NCBI GenBank assembly: GCA_015499995.1
Contig: JADNRV010000602.1
Coordinates: 1-22,755 of the forward strand
Direction of reading: 5' to 3'
Length of the DNA: 22,755 nucleotides
Source: Flammula alnicola
Lineage: Eukaryota > Basidiomycota > Agaricomycetes > Agaricales > Strophariaceae
Shown: positions 3,075 to 18,734 of the stretch, in pieces
Layout: the number at the start of each line of letters is the position of its first letter
Position numbering within the stretch: the stretch's first letter is position 1
Program-made: the position numbers and the translations under genes
Notes under the pieces: model-generated
The model's input: only the letters and a program-made list of their open reading frames with translations
What the model was told of the DNA's origin: nothing
Database searches by the model: none

Positions 3075-4041
3075 TTAGACTTGAGGCATTGTGGCGGAGG
3101 GAGTATACACTGCCGTATGTTGCACCGGCGATGAGTATGTCATCGGATGAGTGGGAGGAATTGAAGGGTTGGACGGGTAGGTGTTCATCGCGATCGACGG
3201 GGAAGCAAAGCCCTTAGCCTCTAAATCGCCGGATTTGTGGGTCAAAGCTGGCATTTTGACCTGGAGTTCATTGACGCTTCGGAACCATACTTGGTCGTCA
3301 CCGCGGAAGTAGACGGTAGTGGAGTAGGTCAGCAGCAGTAGCATGTATTTCATCACTGACAGCCAAATTTGAGTCTGAATATAGAGCGGAATTTTGAAAG
3401 CACACGCACGCAGTACAAAGACGACGATCGTCAGTCCCTCGATTGCGAGCAATTGATTACACTTTTGTACGCCGACCTCTGTGAGATTTTATAATTTTAT
3501 TGGAGAAGCTGTCGGCTATACAAATCTGTGCTCACCGAAGACGAAGAATTGGCAGCCACCAAAAAGGACAAAATTTTGTTTCTTCTGGATTGCAAGGGCT
3601 GCCGAGACCACCCAGAATATCCACATCGTGCCTTCTTGCGATGTGAGAAGATTGAAATATACCCAGAACAAAGAAAAGAAATTCGCACCGATGATGGAGA
3701 GTTCAGAAACGATGTAGAGAATGAACGCATTTTTTCTAAGGAAAGGGAGTACCAACCTAAGAAGAAGGCCGGTCAGTACTACGTCTCTCAAATCGGACAA
3801 TTCACTGACATAGTAGGAAAGACTAGCAAAGACAAGGAGGAAGCAAAAGACCCATCCTTCAAAGCTCTCGGTCACCTGCTCCGACATGCTGAATTGCGTC
3901 CAAACAGCAAGGAGACCAAGTACCGGTAGACTCAGGATAGTGCAGAGGCCTTGTAAACACAGATATTTCAGCTACATTCAAGTTGCAACGAATGAACAAT
4001 GTACCGAGAATAACCATTCGATATACGTAGAAGTAGTTCAT
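3075..4041 (-). CDS. MARVEL-domain-like integral membrane protein (copy 2, one frame anomaly)
   Basis: Exons on the minus strand: 4005-4041, 3810-3949, 3689-3756, 3536-3631, 3404-3478 and 3075-3355. Five of six intron positions and phases match copy 1, and exons 1, 3 and 5 have identical lengths (37, 68, 75 nt). The shared core is clear: FLRKNAFILYIVSELSII, TMWIFWV, GGCQFF and QVWFRSV-EL. The tail is shorter than in copy 1 but keeps the Thr-Tyr-Pro-rich start and the terminal MPQV. Exon 2 ends in phase 0 (after Tyr-Tyr), whereas exon 3 needs phase 2, so the exons sum to 697 nt. Either one base is extra in exon 2 near 3811-3820, or the 53-nt intron 3757-3809 is retained, which happens to stay open. 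The protein would be about 231 residues with four membrane segments, probably in the plasma membrane. Confidence 0.68.
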
Positions 4042-4139
4042 CTTGCACTGGAGGATGGAGGGTAATATCGAATGGGGGAAAAGGAGTACTTTCAGCTGTT
4101 GAAAAAGGCATCATTTTGTACTGTTCCTCACCAGCTATC

Positions 4140-5150
4140 TTAGCGACCAGATCGACGGGTGCCCAAGTACAAGGCCACGGAGCTCACTGCCCCCTGTCAC
4201 TCTATTTAAGGAGGATGTGAACAAGATCGATATCATGCTATAAAAATCACCGACATTCAAGAGACGCGATAATAGGGGCTCTTCTTGAGTAAAGGAATCC
4301 CGAAGCCTGTGAGGATGGGGAGATATTTGGTAAGTACATAGTAGCCGGAGTGAATGTGGAACATCGATTACCGGTTAGAGATGACCACTCGACATCAAGC
4401 CCAGCAGTATCCGACAGACACGGTACATCATGCATCATGGCCTGACAGTGACACTGTTGAAGCTTGAAGCTTGAAGGTTGAATATTGAATGTTGACGTCG
4501 GACGGCTAAACTTGCCGTTGCCATGGCTCGGAAAATTATTGGAGAGCAGGAACATCGAGGTGGAAAATTGGTAGCTGAATTGACCAAACGCATGATGAGG
4601 TTGTCCGATTCAGGATGCCAAAAGAGCTATGTATGTCGATGGGTCACCGGTCACCTGAGATCTAAAATGGTTCGTTAGAGCGCCAATCAATCCCCCCTTT
4701 TCCCCCAAGGGAATGATTTGATACGCGCCAAAGATAAGTAAGTATGTTGGGCCGACAATTCGGACCATTTGGCGGCACAGTCGAGTGTAAGGCTCCAAGT
4801 TTGAAGGTAATACGCACGCTGTACAATGATAATGGCTGTCGGTTCTCGAGTACTCAGTACTAGCCACGTCCGGTGTGTTGAAGAGCACATGAGTGATCCA
4901 GTTTGTTGACAAGGACATGGCGAGGCGTCAGCAGTCGGTTTCAAGTTGGCACCAGTTTGGATCATGTCAGCTATTCCAATTGGCATCACGATAACTTCGG
5001 AGATTTGTTGTGGCGATATGATCCAACGAAGACATATATCCTGATTATACGAGTCACTGATAAGGAAAGTTATCGATGGAGAATGAGTTTGAAGTTTTTG
5101 AAAGAGTTCTCAGTTAGCAATGAGCTGAAAGTGAGTTGAAAGTTGGGACG
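4140..5150 (-). pseudogene. Decayed MARVEL-like remnant (right duplication unit)
   Basis: On the minus strand a stretch at about 4860-4790 resembles the exon 5/intron 5 junction of the two MARVEL genes (ccgacag-c-ttatc, then gcgtgcgt-tta-cttcaaa). No continuous frame links it to other exons. The remaining sequence matches 1860-2480 of the left unit. ORFs here are short and in changing frames. A partial alternating repeat (gaagcttgaagcttgaaggttgaatattgaatgttga) lies near 4460-4494. I read this as a third, dead MARVEL-family copy. Confidence 0.45.
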
Positions 5151-8969: not shown

Positions 8970-11900
8970 ATGGCGTACGTCTTCAAACGAGGTCAGTGGC
9001 CAATGTCTTTATGTCTATCGCGGAAGCTAACCAACAACCATCTCATGTAGATGGGTATGTCTTTTGGGCCTGGCACGCGTTTAAACGCATCAATAATGCT
9101 CAGGAATATTAACTCCTCTCTTGCAGTCGTAAAGAACGCGTCCAGTTTGACAAAGTATGTTCTAGACCGTGTCGCCGGACAGATCGCATATTGACATGCC
9201 TCTCAACAGATCACAGCGCGAATCCACAAGCTTTCCTACGGTCTCGATGTGAATTATATAGACCCTGTTGAGTATGTATTCAAATGCGCTCTCTCGTGTC
9301 TATCGCTCATAGACGGAAACGTATAGGGTTACGCAGAAGGTTGTGGCAGGAGTGTACCAAGGAGTGACGACAGTAGAGCTCGATGTAAGTCATTTCGTCA
9401 AACCTCTTTCAGACACGTCAATCTCATCTGTACCCTCGTAGAATTTGGCTGCCGAGACAGCTGCATATCTGACAACAAAGCATCCCGATTATGCCGTCCT
9501 CGCTGCTCGTATTGCTATCTCAAATCTTCACAAAGAGACAAAAAAGAACTTCTCTCAAGTAATCAAGGATCTTTACGAATATGGTGATGACTTTTACTTC
9601 CTGTCGTCCCATCTTTGTCTAATCAAAGCACAGTCAACCCTAAGAATGGCAGGCCGGCTGGTTTGATCTCTAAGGAGACATACGAGGTCGTACGTGATAA
9701 CGCTGAGATTCTCGACTCGGCGATCATCTACGACCGCGATTTTCACTACAATTAGTAGGTCTTTATTCATTTTATCCACATAACAGCAGGCTCATTCTCG
9801 TTCTAGCTTTGGATTCAAAACTCTTGAACGTTCCTACTTGCTCCGCCTCGATGGTCGTGTCGCTGAACGTCCCCAGCACATGATCATGCGTGTCGCTGTG
9901 GGTATCCACGGCTCTGACATCGACAGGGTTGTCGAGACCTACAACCTCATGTCGGAACGTTACTTCACACACGCCTCTCCAACCCTCTTCAATGCCGGTA
10001 CCCCTAACCCTCAAATGAGTTCATGCTTTCTTGTTTGCATGAAAGACGATTCCATCGAGGGCATTTACGACACTCTCAAGAGCTGCGCCATGATTAGTAA
10101 GACGGCTGGAGGTATTGGCCTGAACATCCATTGTATCCGTGCCACTGGGTTAGTTGATGACCTTGCCTCTTTGTTATGCATGCTCATCTCTATCTTAGAT
10201 CTTACATCGCTGGTACTAACGGTTACTCCAACGGCATCGTGCCCATGCTTCGAGCATATGATGCTACTGCTCGTTACGTCGACCAAGGAGGGAACAAGCG
10301 TCCCGGAGCCTTCGCTATCTACATTGAGCCATGGCACGCCGATATCTTCGAGTTCCTTGACCTCCGCAAAAATCACGGAAAGGAAGAAGCGCGTGCTCGC
10401 GATCTTTTCTATGCCCTCTGGATTCCTGATCTCTTGTGAGCATTAATAGCTTTATATTGCACATAGGGCATGGATCTGATAAACCTTTTAGCATGAAGCG
10501 TGTTGAGCAAAACGGCGATTGGTCATTGTTTTGCCCTAACGAGGCTCCGAACATGCACGAGGTTCACGGAGCCGAGTTCGAGGAGCTGTATCTGAAGTAC
10601 GAACGGGAAGGACGTGCACGCAAGACTATTCCTGCCCAAAAGCTGTGGTATGCTATTCTCGAGGCACAGATCGAAACCGGAGGACCTTTCATGTGCTACA
10701 AGGACTCCGCCAATTGTGAGTTACTTAAAGTCTACAAAATCTCTCGGAGTCTAACCTTGAGCCTTTAAGATAAATCTAATCAGAAGAACCTTGGCACCAT
10801 CAAGTCTTCCAACCTTTGCACAGAGATCATCGAGTATTCTTCGCCTGATGAGACCGCTGTCTGCAATCTCGCGTCCCTTGCTCTTCCCACCTTTATCCGC
10901 AACGGTCAATATGACTTCCAGAAGCTCCACGATGTGACCAAAGTCGTCGCATACAACTTGAACAAGGTCATCGATGTCAACTACTACCCCGTCCCCGAAG
11001 CTCGCCGCTCCAACATGCGCCATCGCCCTATCGGCGTTGGTGTGCAAGGTCTTGCCGACGCCTTCATGGCTCTGCGCATGCCATTCGACTCGCCGGAGGC
11101 TAAGGAGCTCAACATCCAGATCTTTGAGACCATCTATCACGCTGCGCTCGAGGCCAGCGCCGAGCTCGCTGAGCGTGATGGCCCTTACGAGACTTGGATG
11201 GGAAGCCCTGCTCAACTCGGTCAGCTTCAGTTCGACTTGTGGGGTGTTACGCCTACCGACCTGTGGGATTGGGCTTCGTTGAAGGAGAAGATTGCTCGCA
11301 CTGGTCTCAGGAACTCGCTGTTGTGCGCTCCTATGCCCACGGCCTCAACGAGTCAGATTCTTGGTAACAATGAGTGCTTCGAGCCTTACACAAGGTAAGT
11401 CTCTGTCATGCTTATCTTTTAAAACAATGCTAATTCCTATAATAGTAACATCTACACTCGCCGCGTTCTTGCTGGTGAATTCCAAGTCGTCTGCCCATGG
11501 CTTCTCCGCGAGCTCGTCGATCTCGGTCTCTGGGACGACAACATGAAGAACATGATCATCGCCCACAACGGGTCCATCCAGAACATCCCTACCATCCCTG
11601 ACGACGTCAAGGCCATCTACAAGACCGTCTGGGAGATCAGCCAGAAAAAAGTTCTCGACCTCGCTGCCGACCGTGGTGCCTTCATCTGCCAGAGCCAGAG
11701 CTTGAATGTCCATCTGCAGGCACCCACCCTCGGCCAGCTCACGAGTATGCACTTCTATGGCTGGAAGAAGGGTCTCAAGACCGGCATGTACTACCTCCGC
11801 ACGAGGCCCGCTGCACAGGCTATCCAGTTCACCGTCGACCAGAGCGTAATCAAGGACGCCAAGAAGCAGAACGCCGCCGCTGCGAGCCGTGTCTCCGCAT

Positions 11901-12259
11901 CGCGACCAATCGTCCGTGCTAATGGTATCCCTACTCCATCTTCTTCGCCGTCTCCTTCGCGTTCTATCAGCACTCCATCTCCAGCGCCTGTGGTGATCAA
12001 GCAGGAGCCTATCTCGCCATCGCCACTAAAATTCGACCCTGCCCCAATGACGCCATCGTCGTCGAGCGGGTCCACGTCGGTCGACACAACCGCTATCTCA
12101 CTGGCCGCTCTGTCGCTCGACGAGAAGACGCTCAAAGCCGCCGAAGCCGATCCAGAGTTCGCCGCCGCTCTTCTACGAAAGCACGAGCGCGACCTGGAAG
12201 AGGCCAAGCTGATGTGCTCTCTGGAGAACAAGGAAGCGTGCGTGATGTGCTCTGGCTAG
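8970..12259 (+). CDS. RNR1: Ribonucleoside-diphosphate reductase large subunit (RNR1)
   Basis: It reduces ribonucleoside diphosphates to deoxyribonucleotides, with the small subunit, in the cytosol. Twelve exons: 8970-8991, 9051-9054, 9127-9154, 9210-9271, 9327-9384, 9442-9583, 9634-9754, 9807-10148, 10199-10435, 10492-10715, 10770-11394 and 11446-12259. They sum to 2679 nt, giving 892 residues, close to the 888 of yeast Rnr1. The start YVFKRDGRKE matches the family ATP-cone start. Key residues: redox Cys219 (QMSSC) and Cys445 (TAVCNL); active-site Asn428, Cys430 and Glu432 (SSNLCTE); and the C-terminal shuttle pair Cys887/Cys890 (ACVMCSG end). [10 protein letters not shown] and the P-T-A-S-T-S loop are intact. 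Residues of about 780-860 form a Ser/Pro-rich linker, as in other fungi. The 4-nt second exon is required to supply Asp-Gly. Promoter MCB boxes suggest S-phase control. The gene is convergent with the one at 12928-14221. Confidence 0.97.
9051..9054 (+). other. RNR1: 4-nt microexon of the RNR1 gene
   Basis: The bases atgg lie between introns 8992-9050 (GTCAGT...TGTAG) and 9055-9126 (GTATGT...TTGCAG). With the last g of exon 1 and the first t of exon 3 they complete the codons GAT GGT. These give the invariant Asp-Gly of the family motif KRDGRKE. No other combination of the visible splice sites restores both the residues and the frame. Confidence 0.85.
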
Positions 12260-15440: not shown

Positions 15441-15771
15441 CGCTTCTGCGCTTGCCGGGGAAGGATGCAGTGCCACACGGATAGCGTTGCACTCGTCCTC
15501 ATCAATAGGGAGGCTCAAAGTGGGCCGCCGTTCGCGGAAGACCTGGAGCATAGTTAGATGGACAGTCGATATATTCGGAGTATCACTCGCTTGCGCCTTG
15601 CATAGTTCTGGCATCCGCATGAGGAACTCTGAAATGTACTATTGACCTCATTGACAATCAATGTGCTGGGGAATACTACATACCGTGAAACTGGGAGGAA
15701 TAGAAGTATCTAGAGAGTAGAGTGTGTAAGTCTACAGCGGCATCTAGGTCAGTAGCATGAAAGCTCTCGCC

Positions 15772-18734
15772 TTAGGGGAGAATTTCCTCAACTACATAAA
15801 CATCGTCAGAACGAAACGAGCATGGATTCCCAGAACACTCACATCGACTAGCTTCATCAGCTTTTGCCGCATTCTGCGCGAGTTCAATTGCGAGTTCAAT
15901 CTGGAAGAGGTTATGAAAGCATGTAAGGAAATGGAAGTCACATTCCGCTTGAGAACATACCCAGAGGAGGAAGGAGATAGGCAGTACACATGAGAATTCT
16001 CAGCTAGCCTAAAACGAAATACTTACCCACTGCAACGTGCGAGACCATGGTCAGTGAGCATAGAATATGACTGGCAATGTTGCGGAGGCACATACTTGCT
16101 GGAGGTGTGCAAAAGTAGAGTGATTGCGAGTGTCAGAAGTGGTCAGTGCTCAATCAATAGGTTCACTTACTTCCTGGAAATGCGCAAGCGAGACGGAATC
16201 GTCAGAGGGTCGGCTGGTGCTCATCAACAAGTTCACGTACAAGCTGTAAATGCGCAAGCAAGGCAGAATCGTCAGAGGGCTGGTCGGTACTCAATTGACA
16301 AGTTCACATACTCGCTGGAAATGTGTAAGCGAGATGGAATCATCAGAGGGCCGGTCGGTGCTCAATCAACAAGTTTACATACAACCTGGAAATGGCAAAC
16401 AAGACAGAACCGTCAGAGGGACGGCCGGTGCTCAATTAACAAGTTCACATACAAGCTGGAAATGTGCAAGCGAGACAGAATCGTCAGAGAGCGAGTTGGC
16501 ACTCAATCAACAAATTCACGTACTTGCTGGAAATGCACAAGCGAGACGGAATCGTCAGAGGGGCGGTAAGTGCACGATCAACAAGTTCACGTACACCCTG
16601 GAAATGCAGGAGTGAGACGGAATCATCAGAGCCTGCCAGTTAGTGCACAATCAACAAGTTGACTTACTGCCTGGAAATGTACAAGCAAGATGGAATCATC
16701 AGAGGGCCGGTTGGTGCTCAATCAACAAGTTCACGCACAAGCTGGAAATGCATAAGCGAGACAGAATCGTCAGAGGGTCAGTTGGTGCTCAGTCAACAAT
16801 TTCACATACCGGCTGGAAATGTGCAAGCAAGGCAGGTCAGAGGACTGGTCGATGCTCAATCAACAAGTTCACGTACATGCTGGAAATGTGTAGAGAAGAC
16901 GGAACCGTCAGAGGGCCCGTCGGCGCTCAAATAACAAGTTCACGTACACCCTGGAAATGCGCGAGCAAGACGGAATCATCAGGGGGTGGGTCAGTGCTCA
17001 GACAACCAGTTCACGTACTCGCTGGAAATGTGCGAGCGAGAGGGAATCGTCAGAGGGGCAGTCAATGCTCGATCAACAAGTTCACGTACACCCTGGAAAT
17101 GCGCAAGCAAGGCAGAATAATCAGAGGCGTGGTCGGTGGTCAATCAACAAGTTCACTTACATACTGGAAATGTGCAGACGAGACGGAATCGTCAGAGGGC
17201 CCGTCAGTACTCAGTCGACAAGTTCACGTACTCGCTGGAAATGCACAAGCGAGACGGAATCATCAGAGGGCCGGTCAGTGCTCGATTAAAAAATTCACGC
17301 ACAATCTGGAAATGCGCAAGCAAGACGGAATTGTCAGAGGGGGGTCGGTGCTCGATCAACAAGTTCACGTACATTCTACAAATGCTCGCAGGCGAGGAAA
17401 TTGTGAGAATACTGCAAATGCATTTCTACCAAATGCTTGTATTTACCTTTTCGACTGGCACAAGCTGAATATTGCGGAAGTCCACAATGCTCAGGTCCTT
17501 CAAAGGTGGCCTATTCGCACGTATCGATGTATCTGCCCAACGGAAGCGTCGTTCGCAACGCCGACTAGAATGCAGCGGTCATTAAATGCAAGGAAAATTG
17601 GCAAATCATGCTTACCACTCTAACCATCCGTCGTCCTGCATCACACCAACATATGTTCTGTAACATCGTGGACACGTCGTCCTCTGAAGCGCAGCAGACT
17701 CCGACGTCAGCTTTACCCTCCTTACCTTCATGCTCATGACAACAACCGCCCCTTTCTTCACCACTGAATCCCATTCAAATGGATACTTTACGACTGCCTT
17801 ACCATCCGCACTGGAAATGCTGTATTCGTGCTGCTCAACATAGTCATGACCGATCTTTCCCTTGAAGTGCTGCATCATAATATCGTGAAGTTTCTGTACC
17901 TGAAGCATGAGTGCATAGAAGGGAATGCACAAAAAAGGCGCACATCTGGTGAGTAGCAAAAGTCCATTGGCAACGTCATCGGCTTCCCGAATGCATCTAC
18001 CAGGATCACGGCGTTTTCACGACCATACCCAAGGGATGGAGGTAGTTGCCTCTGTATTGTGAGTATCTCTTGCGTTGTTGTCGTAATTGACGCCAAGGCC
18101 TCTCTAATGACGTCCGCGTGGTAGGAAGTCGAGGAACTGAGGTAGCATGGCATTAGTGAGGATGAAGACGTTTAGTGCGAGATCCAACTAACATTGCCAG
18201 TCCAGTCAAAAACACTGTAAGATTTTGTTTATGTTGAGAAAGCTTCTGTCTAAACTCCGCAACGTCGGTGGCTTTAAAAAGACCCCACCCGATTTTGCGC
18301 CAAGAGGAGTTCCGTCCGCCACCACTGAGAGCCTTCTGGTACGACTTGATACGATCCCAGAACTTCTCCAGCAACTTGAGACACATTGTGGCTTCTTCCT
18401 TGATATCCTGCGCCACAGATGCATTGGGGAGAGTTGCACGAATTACGTCGTTCACAAATAGCAAGGCGTGATGGAAAGAACGCAGTTCGCTGATCAAGCA
18501 TTGATACTCGTATGAGGCTCCCGTGCTGTCGTTGAGAGCTTTGTAAATTGAGAGAGCAAGGGTGGCGGCGGCGACGATGTCGCCAAAGGAGCTTGGAACG
18601 AAGGGAAGCATTTCAGGTAAGGTGGTGGGCGCATTCACATTGACTGAGGGCTTGAGTATCAGATTCCATTTCGCTTTTCGCTTTTGATGGGTTACATAAC
18701 ATTCAAATTTCAATTGACGGCGAACGGCGGCCAA
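15772..18734 (-). CDS. Fungal ubiquitin-like-domain / zinc-ribbon protein with single-codon microexon array
   Basis: Minus-strand exons: 18193-18734, 17944-18136, 17616-17899, 17447-17564, then twenty 3-nt exons (16027-17375), then 15843-15900 and 15772-15791 (stop). The total is 1275 nt, 424 residues. The real start may be Met42 (18609-18611), since family members begin near the PSSFGDIV motif. Residues 42-185 form a helical N-terminal domain. About residues 220-305 are ubiquitin-like (LGYGREN-VILVDAFGKPMTLPMDFC, ending in VKKGAVVVMSMKV). Cys321/324 (CPRC) and Cys340/343 (CRRC, with Cys340 made across a splice junction) form a zinc ribbon. After Lys379 come the microexons, then an Ala-rich helix IELAIELAQNAAKADEASR. 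The ULD-type family is common and expanded in Agaricomycetes; its function is unknown. The end is uncertain: retaining the first array intron would stop the protein 6 residues after Lys379. A different last acceptor (15744) would open a longer tail toward 15378, antisense to the duplicated fragment at 15335-15440. Confidence 0.7.
15901..16026 (-). other. Last intron after the microexon array, with a decayed unit inside
   Basis: The modelled intron runs from GTAAGT at 16026 to CTTCCAG ending at 15901 (126 nt), about twice the usual length here. A second good donor, TGG-GTATGT, sits at 15960-15955, followed by a normal 60-nt intron body. No AG lies directly before that TGG. It looks like a 21st microexon unit that lost its acceptor. 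Confidence 0.45.
16027..17446 (-). repeat. Tandem array of 20 introns separated by 3-nt exons (~71-bp unit)
   Basis: In transcript order the 3-nt exons are: AAT 17373, ATT 17303, CGA 17232, TAT 17161, GGT 17090, CGA 17019, GGT 16948, CAT 16877, CCG 16810, CTT 16739, GCA 16668, GGT 16595, CAA 16524, CTT 16453, GTT 16383, CGA 16312, CTT 16241, GAA 16171, CAA 16096, TGG 16027 (lowest coordinate given). The introns before them are 71, 67, 68, 68, 68, 68, 68, 68, 64, 68, 68, 70, 68, 68, 67, 68, 68, 67, 72 and 66 nt. Donors after the microexons: 9 GTACGT, 5 GTATGT, 4 GTAAGT and 2 GTGCGT. Sixteen of 20 acceptors are CATTTCCAG. The array introns between microexons all carry CTGAC or CTGAT before the acceptor. 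End units (first, 19th, 20th) are diverged. The array may be read as a minisatellite, but its period is exactly intron plus one codon. Confidence 0.88.

Follow-up and report, generated by a model that had tools for sequence, protein, structure and literature searches.

In the window, the 22,755-nucleotide (nt) stretch of Flammula alnicola contig JADNRV010000602.1 analysed here, the minus strand carries a gene whose region 15901..17447 contains 20 three-base segments between 21 GT...AG intron-like sequences. We predict that these segments are single-codon exons, and their splicing would probably join them into a 20-residue stretch of the C-terminal tail, one amino acid at a time. Once joined, the segments lead in frame from the exon that ends at 17447 into the one that starts at 15900, all 20 predicted exons are in phase 0, and the assembled frame runs from the ATG at 18611 to the stop at 15772. 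The triplets translate to NIRYGRGHPLAGQLVRLEQW. An initial annotation had proposed twenty 3-nt phase-0 exons at these positions, with both flanking exons in frame with the series, and we recover the same structure. Its numbering of the tail as residues 380–399 is to be replaced, since our gene model gives 337–356 or 339–358, with two possible acceptors in an upstream intron.

The spacing of the array is strict. On the array strand, the pattern YAG-N(k)-GTRNGT has 20 matches at k = 3 and none at every other k between 0 and 12. Outside the array, the window has one match of YAG-NNN-GTRNGT on the minus strand and two on the plus strand. An order-1 Markov model with the composition of the array gives an expectation of 0.066 matches and a maximum of two in 500 simulations; therefore, the spacing in the array is not due to chance. 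The features of the gene, with their basis in parentheses where one is given, are as follows.

18193..18611, minus strand: predicted coding exon 1, with the ATG at 18611 and the N-terminal helical region (gene model, homologues)
17944..18136, minus strand: predicted coding exon 2, start of the ubiquitin-like domain (gene model, Pfam)
17616..17893, minus strand: predicted coding exon 3, ubiquitin-like domain and first CPRC of a zinc-ribbon-like stretch; the alternative start 17899 is used in the gene model, and the public model P0002 starts at KLHD
17447..17564, minus strand: predicted coding exon 4, second half of the zinc-ribbon-like stretch, ending ...VPVEK
17376..17446, minus strand: first array intron, non-repeat
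17373..17375, minus strand: predicted single-codon exon 1, AAT (N)
17303..17305, minus strand: predicted single-codon exon 2, ATT (I)
17232..17234, minus strand: predicted single-codon exon 3, CGA (R)
17161..17163, minus strand: predicted single-codon exon 4, TAT (Y)
17090..17092, minus strand: predicted single-codon exon 5, GGT (G)
17019..17021, minus strand: predicted single-codon exon 6, CGA (R)
16948..16950, minus strand: predicted single-codon exon 7, GGT (G)
16877..16879, minus strand: predicted single-codon exon 8, CAT (H)
16810..16812, minus strand: predicted single-codon exon 9, CCG (P)
16739..16741, minus strand: predicted single-codon exon 10, CTT (L)
16668..16670, minus strand: predicted single-codon exon 11, GCA (A)
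16595..16597, minus strand: predicted single-codon exon 12, GGT (G)
16524..16526, minus strand: predicted single-codon exon 13, CAA (Q)
16453..16455, minus strand: predicted single-codon exon 14, CTT (L)
16383..16385, minus strand: predicted single-codon exon 15, GTT (V)
16312..16314, minus strand: predicted single-codon exon 16, CGA (R)
16241..16243, minus strand: predicted single-codon exon 17, CTT (L)
16171..16173, minus strand: predicted single-codon exon 18, GAA (E)
16096..16098, minus strand: predicted single-codon exon 19, CAA (Q)
16027..16029, minus strand: predicted single-codon exon 20, TGG (W)
16141..17373, minus strand: tandem repeat of intron-plus-codon units, period 71, 17.4 copies (Tandem Repeats Finder)
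16099..16170, minus strand: half-repeat intron, of which the first ~41 positions fit the repeat profile
16030..16095, minus strand: non-repeat intron before TGG
15901..16026, minus strand: non-repeat intron after TGG
15843..15900, minus strand: predicted coding exon after the array, IELAIELAQNAAKADEASR (gene model)
15772..15791, minus strand: predicted last coding exon, FEEILP and stop TAA (gene model)

The last four single codons running into the terminal exon would give the predicted tryptic peptide LEQWIELAIELAQNAAK, and single-codon exons 7–16 by themselves would encode another, GHPLAGQLVR. The array listed above is the only one that Tandem Repeats Finder reports. Seventeen introns are full copies of the unit of ~71 base pairs (bp) and the 18th is a half copy, while the first intron (donor GTAAAT), the one before TGG and the last one are not copies of the repeat; the earlier description of near-identical repeats of this length holds for the 17 full copies and not for the other four. 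The intron-like sequence of the repeat is mostly 68 bases long, an ordinary length for a fungal intron, and the introns inside the run span 64–72 nt. Each repeat intron has its own donor, branch-like CTGAY site and acceptor, and one codon separates neighbours. If retained, the first array intron gives a stop at 17428–17426, where the initial annotation had also placed one. An IELA duplication in the window comprises 12 bases.

The gene had been taken as a single case; the same arrays are found family-wide in its paralogues. A DNA query of 237 bases gave 101 matches, on the contigs labelled here C53, C157, C239, C323, C479, C560 and C643. All of these carry members of the gene family except C323, which carries a fragment, and sequences distantly related to the N-terminal part are found on contigs C423 and C13. 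Twelve genomic stretches were taken for comparison. In the segmentation, exon length was free between 1 and 30, intron length between 45 and 140, and GT/GC and AG were required. As seen in the DNA, the paralogues have between 10 and 32 units, which would let the tail differ in length, and 164 three-base segments in eight arrays contain no stop codon. All exons are 3 nt long in the window (18) and in the arrays L028 (18), L026 (18), L030 (18) and L025 (10), as are 31 of 32 in L024, 32 of 34 in L023 and 19 of 20 in L027. The exception in L023 and L024 is an in-frame 18-base exon, MSYFQA, which is also part of the public model P0005. There (~4480–4580 of L023), the acceptor of one unit is damaged, and an in-frame acceptor lies 18 bases before the next donor. 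The second exception in L023 is a 7-base end effect where an insertion follows TGG, and that in L027 is a duplicated piece of the upstream exon, TVNIQLVPVKK, used by the public model P0001. The longest unbroken run of one-codon exons is 22, in both L023 and L024.

Intron lengths are less rigid than exon lengths: 43 of the 153 internal introns are not 68 bases long, so indels do occur in introns. An intron left in the transcript would introduce a stop or break the frame in 153 of 157 cases. At the end of the array, TGG and an in-frame following exon are present in the window, L028, L024, L025, L026, L027 and L030; this exon reads IELAQ...EASR or a variant of it, and NEL... in L025. The last exon reads FEEILP in the window, L024, L025 and L027 and FEEILS in L028.

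The stretches left out of the counts are L021 and L022 (near-identical to the window), L029, L031 (contig end, frameshifts) and L032 (fragment). In L031 there is a two-base exon along with frameshifts in other exons, and in the L032 fragment an acceptor is lost; thus, the three-base rule decays where the gene copy has decayed. L032 (2862–3110, on C323) is an orphan 3' array end with TGG outside the gene family that is losing its splice sites. In L029 (G000:C53:72000-80000) the array is split by two insertions of ~1.4–1.5 kilobases (kb), which makes its segmentation meaningless; it is probably a dead copy. One unit has its intron deleted down to about 42 nt in L026 (3610–3654) and about 35 nt in L030 (3136–3173). 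With a minimum intron of 45 nt in the segmentation, the extra CTT triplet beside it is uncounted, and this codon is probably skipped in frame. The introns of L027 (G000:C53:23500-31500, 3349–4770) are the least divergent of all, at 9%, and its codons are rich in those for lysine and tyrosine. The gene and array on C560 (the window), C479 and C643 are three near-identical copies, which may be recent duplicates or haplotypes separated in the assembly.

The last base of the codon is strongly constrained. Among the 164 three-base exons it is T in 110, A in 52 and G and C in one each (A/T in 162 of 164). In the non-redundant arrays, 112 of 114 codons end in A/T, whereas the ordinary exons of the window gene reach 151 of 338 (p = 4e-29); the ratio of NNT to NNC codons (N, any base) is 76:1 in these arrays and 84:85 in those exons (p = 6e-17). 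As NNT and NNC are synonymous, amino-acid preference cannot produce the avoidance of NNC. Within six arrays, transitions account for 62–75% of the intron differences and 10–25% of the codon differences, so the mutation spectrum seen in the introns does not produce the last-base bias either. These counts show selection acting on the last base ahead of the donor, which is what used splice junctions would be expected to show. A link also exists between this base and intron position +4: in six non-redundant arrays, GTNAGT accompanies A in 16 of 36 cases and T in 3 of 76.

We also compared the divergence of codons with that of introns. Among the 71 columns of 160 units, variability is highest at codon positions 1 and 2, and position 3 ranks 17th; GT, G at +5 and AG are invariant, GT and AG being demanded by the segmentation, and CTGA is nearly fixed. 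Within seven arrays, the codon distance is 0.50–0.66 per base, about the random-draw level of 0.60 calculated from the column compositions, and the distance between intron cores is 0.09–0.28. The contrast is sharpest in L027, with 0.094 for introns and 0.501 for codons. Between close paralogues, by comparison, codons do not evolve faster than introns in any of three pairs. L026 and L030 differ at 0 of 54 codon bases and 51 of 1140 intron bases, and L023 and L024 at 0 of 111 and 12 of 1973; the third pair is the window and L028. Between the window and L026, 26 of 42 bases differ in codons 1–14 (introns 176 of 808) and 0 of 12 in codons 15–18, VRLE (introns 30 of 238). The VRLE codons are identical in the window, L028 and L026. 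The simplest joint reading would be that codons were kept by selection while introns were homogenised, or that there was a burst of codon diversification; in either case, the codons must matter. Neutral unit duplication with free codons was rejected as a full account, since codon distances are 2–5 times the intron distances and the mutation spectrum is another one.

Gene models from other genera contain traces of the same structure. The tails of Galerina marginata P0008 and Laccaria bicolor P0022 match frames in the Flammula arrays that cross an intron, exactly one codon and the next intron (expectation value E = 4.6e-9 and 1.6e-7, respectively). The tail of Gymnopilus junonius P0011 matches likewise (E = 4.3e-6), with two extra residues at the codon. 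In the controls for these three models, the best of 100 shuffles each gave 0.005–0.01, and nothing fell below 0.1 in the window with the array masked. The match of Psilocybe cyanescens P0023 extends from the coding exon through the first intron into the beginning of the following one, at E = 3.5e-6, a value that includes the coding exon. The models of Galerina, Laccaria and Gymnopilus, and less cleanly that of Psilocybe, thus read through homologous introns, and NCBI places the other genera in Galerinaceae, Hydnangiaceae and Agrocybaceae. A further model, P0010, from a Joint Genome Institute contig of 1486 bases, is unbroken across the three ordinary intron positions, has a terminal exon like that of the window and continues VER-SLLWVELVELLALARRREKW-CQAEAEEANRFVEIS; it resembles either a spliced transcript or a copy that lacks introns. 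The paralogues, the models of other genera, the last-base constraint, the codons kept in two of three close pairs, the conserved coding exon downstream and the decayed copies all lend support to the run of single-codon phase-0 exons first proposed from the window.

Splicing of such an array would rely on intron definition and would most simply run step by step along the nascent transcript, beginning at its 5' end. With each step, a 3-base exon would join the growing upstream exon and so place a full exon ahead of the next donor. The near-ban on G as the last base may be understood in the same way: the donor site overlaps the acceptor lying three bases upstream, a G would make U1 bind more tightly, and avoiding it would keep the U1 pairing weak, as such a site may require. 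Selection at the protein level would hold or diversify the codons, and the introns would be homogenised, as their distances suggest. Because the unit is an intron plus a codon, gain or loss of a unit changes the tail by one residue with no frameshift. In its widest form, the proposal is that a gene family of the Agaricales, across several families, writes part of its protein one amino acid per exon, with the 68-base intron as a copyable cassette, the codon and the splice site as one unit, and a tail that is tunable and possibly combinatorially spliced, its residues open to addition, loss or exchange one at a time with the frame intact. We regard this wider form as tentative, at somewhat less than an even chance.

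Several observations weigh against single-codon splicing of the whole array. The public paralogue models omit the codons, stop before the array (P0002–P0005) or enter an array intron (P0001). P0002–P0004 end at GWLE or GWLEW; P0001, P0006 and P0007 seem to stop within an array intron, a few residues past its start; and P0005 joins MSYFQA to IELAQ, with the codons between them omitted. Such ends would be those expected from a predictor unable to place 3-nt exons. The A/T rule has exceptions, as CCG and the final TGG in the window end in G, TGG preceding a non-repeat intron, and CTC in L028 ends in C; moreover, the idea of weak U1 pairing leaves the avoidance of C unexplained. The absence of stop codons is weak as evidence, with 2.2 expected in 114 codons (P = 0.11). 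The segmentation profile, for which four of these arrays served as training data and GT/GC and AG were prescribed, is not wholly independent of them, and the count of 164 excludes the final CAA (AAA in L027) in seven arrays and TGG in all. Between the window and L028, codons change as fast as introns (7 of 54 versus 144 of 1117 bases). The tail of P0010 has 20 residues between the landmarks if REKW corresponds to LEQW, and four if SLLW does; its structural model is one helix of low confidence, with a predicted local distance difference test (pLDDT) score of about 45–58. Finally, the hydrophobic moment of the assembled tails is not above that of shuffles in any of six (lowest p = 0.14).

As for the origin of the array, introner-like elements could have inserted between the codons of an existing tail, in place of duplication of whole units. 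Codons at about the random-draw distance beside intron cores that are 72–91% alike look as if the codons were older than the introns. However, strict 3-base spacing is hard to obtain from independent insertions, and, among the matches listed, the repeat lies only on gene-family contigs and one fragment, a pattern search having counted 123 places in all. The codons of L027 are mostly one-step neighbours (AAA, AAT, GAT, TAT, ATT, CAT), as duplication would leave, and Mantel tests link intron distance with codon distance in two of seven arrays (p = 0.013 in the window and 0.0015 in L027; five not significant). Unit duplication is favoured as the source because of the strict spacing and the mostly one-step codons in L027, and insertion seems unlikely.

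A second alternative accepts the units as real exons and has each messenger RNA (mRNA) keep only some of them, giving many in-frame variants of the tail. Any subset of 3-nt phase-0 exons holds the frame, and the lack of G before 163 of the 164 counted donors would suggest weak sites. In one of its two alignments P0010 may hold only four residues, SLLW, from the zinc-ribbon-like exon to the terminal exon, and the introns of about 42 and 35 nt in L026 and L030 are judged too short, with the codon probably skipped. On the other hand, the included sequence seems to matter, given that codons are identical within two close pairs of paralogues and that VRLE is conserved. We consider partial inclusion distinctly improbable.

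Less probable again, with only a slight chance, is removal of the array as one or a few large introns, in which case no segment would ever be kept and the repeat would be an intron-derived minisatellite. Any motif would be copied by a repeat structure as such, and P0005 indeed passes from MSYFQA to IELAQ directly. Yet such removal leaves the A/T last base, the NNC avoidance and the transversion-rich codon changes unexplained, and the codons, the most variable columns within arrays, are unchanged in two of three close pairs. It is very unlikely that the protein ends before or in the first intron (17428–17426, or after GWLEW) with the array as untranslated 3' sequence; the ends of P0002–P0004 and of P0001, P0006 and P0007 would agree with this, but seven arrays share a conserved, in-frame exon downstream of the units, for which P0010 offers a counterpart. 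An array of intron-encoded small RNAs such as C/D small nucleolar RNAs, with meaningless exons, can hardly be correct: the tandem intronic repeats do carry CTGA motifs, but 15700–17700 has no Rfam match up to E = 5, the consensus fold reaches only -3 kcal/mol and the constrained third base is exonic. This common fold of 22 introns, with 3 of 15 pairs changed on both sides, was not counted as evidence.

Isolated 3-nt microexons are present in mouse Ncam, Drosophila homothorax and, reportedly, RPS24. These are single exons, unlike the tandem runs of 10–32 in Flammula. In a mushroom-forming basidiomycete, exon 2 of Ganoderma lucidum gpd is 3 bp long (PMC8379801), a precedent in mushrooms, and inclusion of 3-nt exons by the spliceosome is documented (PMC8379801; PMC8042270). 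The micro-exon genes of Schistosoma have exons of 6–81 bp (also given as 3–81), mostly 15 bp, and introns of 0.1–5 kb (PMC10526429). The 20 predicted 3-nt exons resemble this architecture as a run of consecutive, very short, symmetric exons, and the Schistosoma genes likewise have exons mostly in multiples of three, are hard to annotate and vary by alternative splicing (PMC10526429). In contrast, most introns of the array are near-identical tandem copies of 68 nt, and the long introns and mostly 15-bp exons of the Schistosoma superfamily are replaced by introns of 64–72 nt and 3-nt exons in a protein of an unrelated family, PF22893. With its predicted exons, the array would stand at the extreme of known microexon gene architecture.

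The introns invite comparison with three other systems. Fungal introner-like elements are near-identical spliceosomal introns in hundreds of unrelated genes (PMC4457414). The intron-like sequences of the array share with them near-identity and multiplication in the genome, but among the matches listed the repeat is confined to the family contigs and the C323 fragment. Duplication of a segment holding splice sites creates new introns (PMC4974935) in one or a few events, as against a long array with one codon per unit in Flammula. Stwintrons require consecutive splicing reactions and have repeated sister copies (PMC9024468). A stwintron is an intron interrupting the donor, branch site or acceptor of another, whereas the Flammula introns stand side by side with a codon between them, each with its own GT, CTGAY-like site and AG. 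The initial annotation knew of no described gene with a run of single-codon exons, and our full-text searches of open-licence papers, some of them targeted on adjacent subjects, found none.

The predicted protein contains the ubiquitin-like domain PF22893 (ULD_2), with 59.7 bits against a cut-off of 24.5, and all 20 relatives compared match this family. The N-terminal region scores 26.9 bits against PigL_N (PF17111; cut-off 27.2), which 11 of the 20 relatives match at E = 0.01. The zinc-ribbon-like stretch CPRC...CRRC after the ubiquitin-like domain was read from the sequence; it has no Pfam match in the window protein and one zinc-ribbon match among the 20 relatives. The closest relatives of the predicted protein are other Flammula alnicola proteins, its paralogues (Strophariaceae by NCBI). 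The AlphaFold2 prediction for P0001 has helices bundled at the N terminus and then a ubiquitin-like region, with good local confidence as far as this region and low confidence downstream of it. The top Foldseek matches are ubiquitin folds, the best at E = 0.047 and none below E = 0.001. Speculatively, the tail may be a variable contact segment.

Elsewhere in the window, a ribonucleotide reductase large subunit gene (PF00317, PF02867) lies at 9784–12259 on the plus strand in several open frames. The window also contains diverged direct repeat pairs (75–88%) at 921–1106/3213–3398, 2275–2345/4869–4939 and 15337–15396/19582–19641, the last of which flanks the array gene on both sides. The pairs suggest local duplications.

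If spliced as predicted, the array would mark the extreme of exon size in runs, with up to 32 one-codon exons per array. It would then probe how far intron definition can go, how closely U1 and the 3' splice-site factors can crowd onto a 3-base exon, and what stepwise co-transcriptional splicing can achieve. The paralogues, with 10, 20 and over 30 units and decayed copies, form a natural series for studying splicing rules. They also mark a blind spot of annotation, as public models stop at, skip or misread the array. For the protein family, whole-unit gain and loss would provide a route by which the tail could evolve by single residues.

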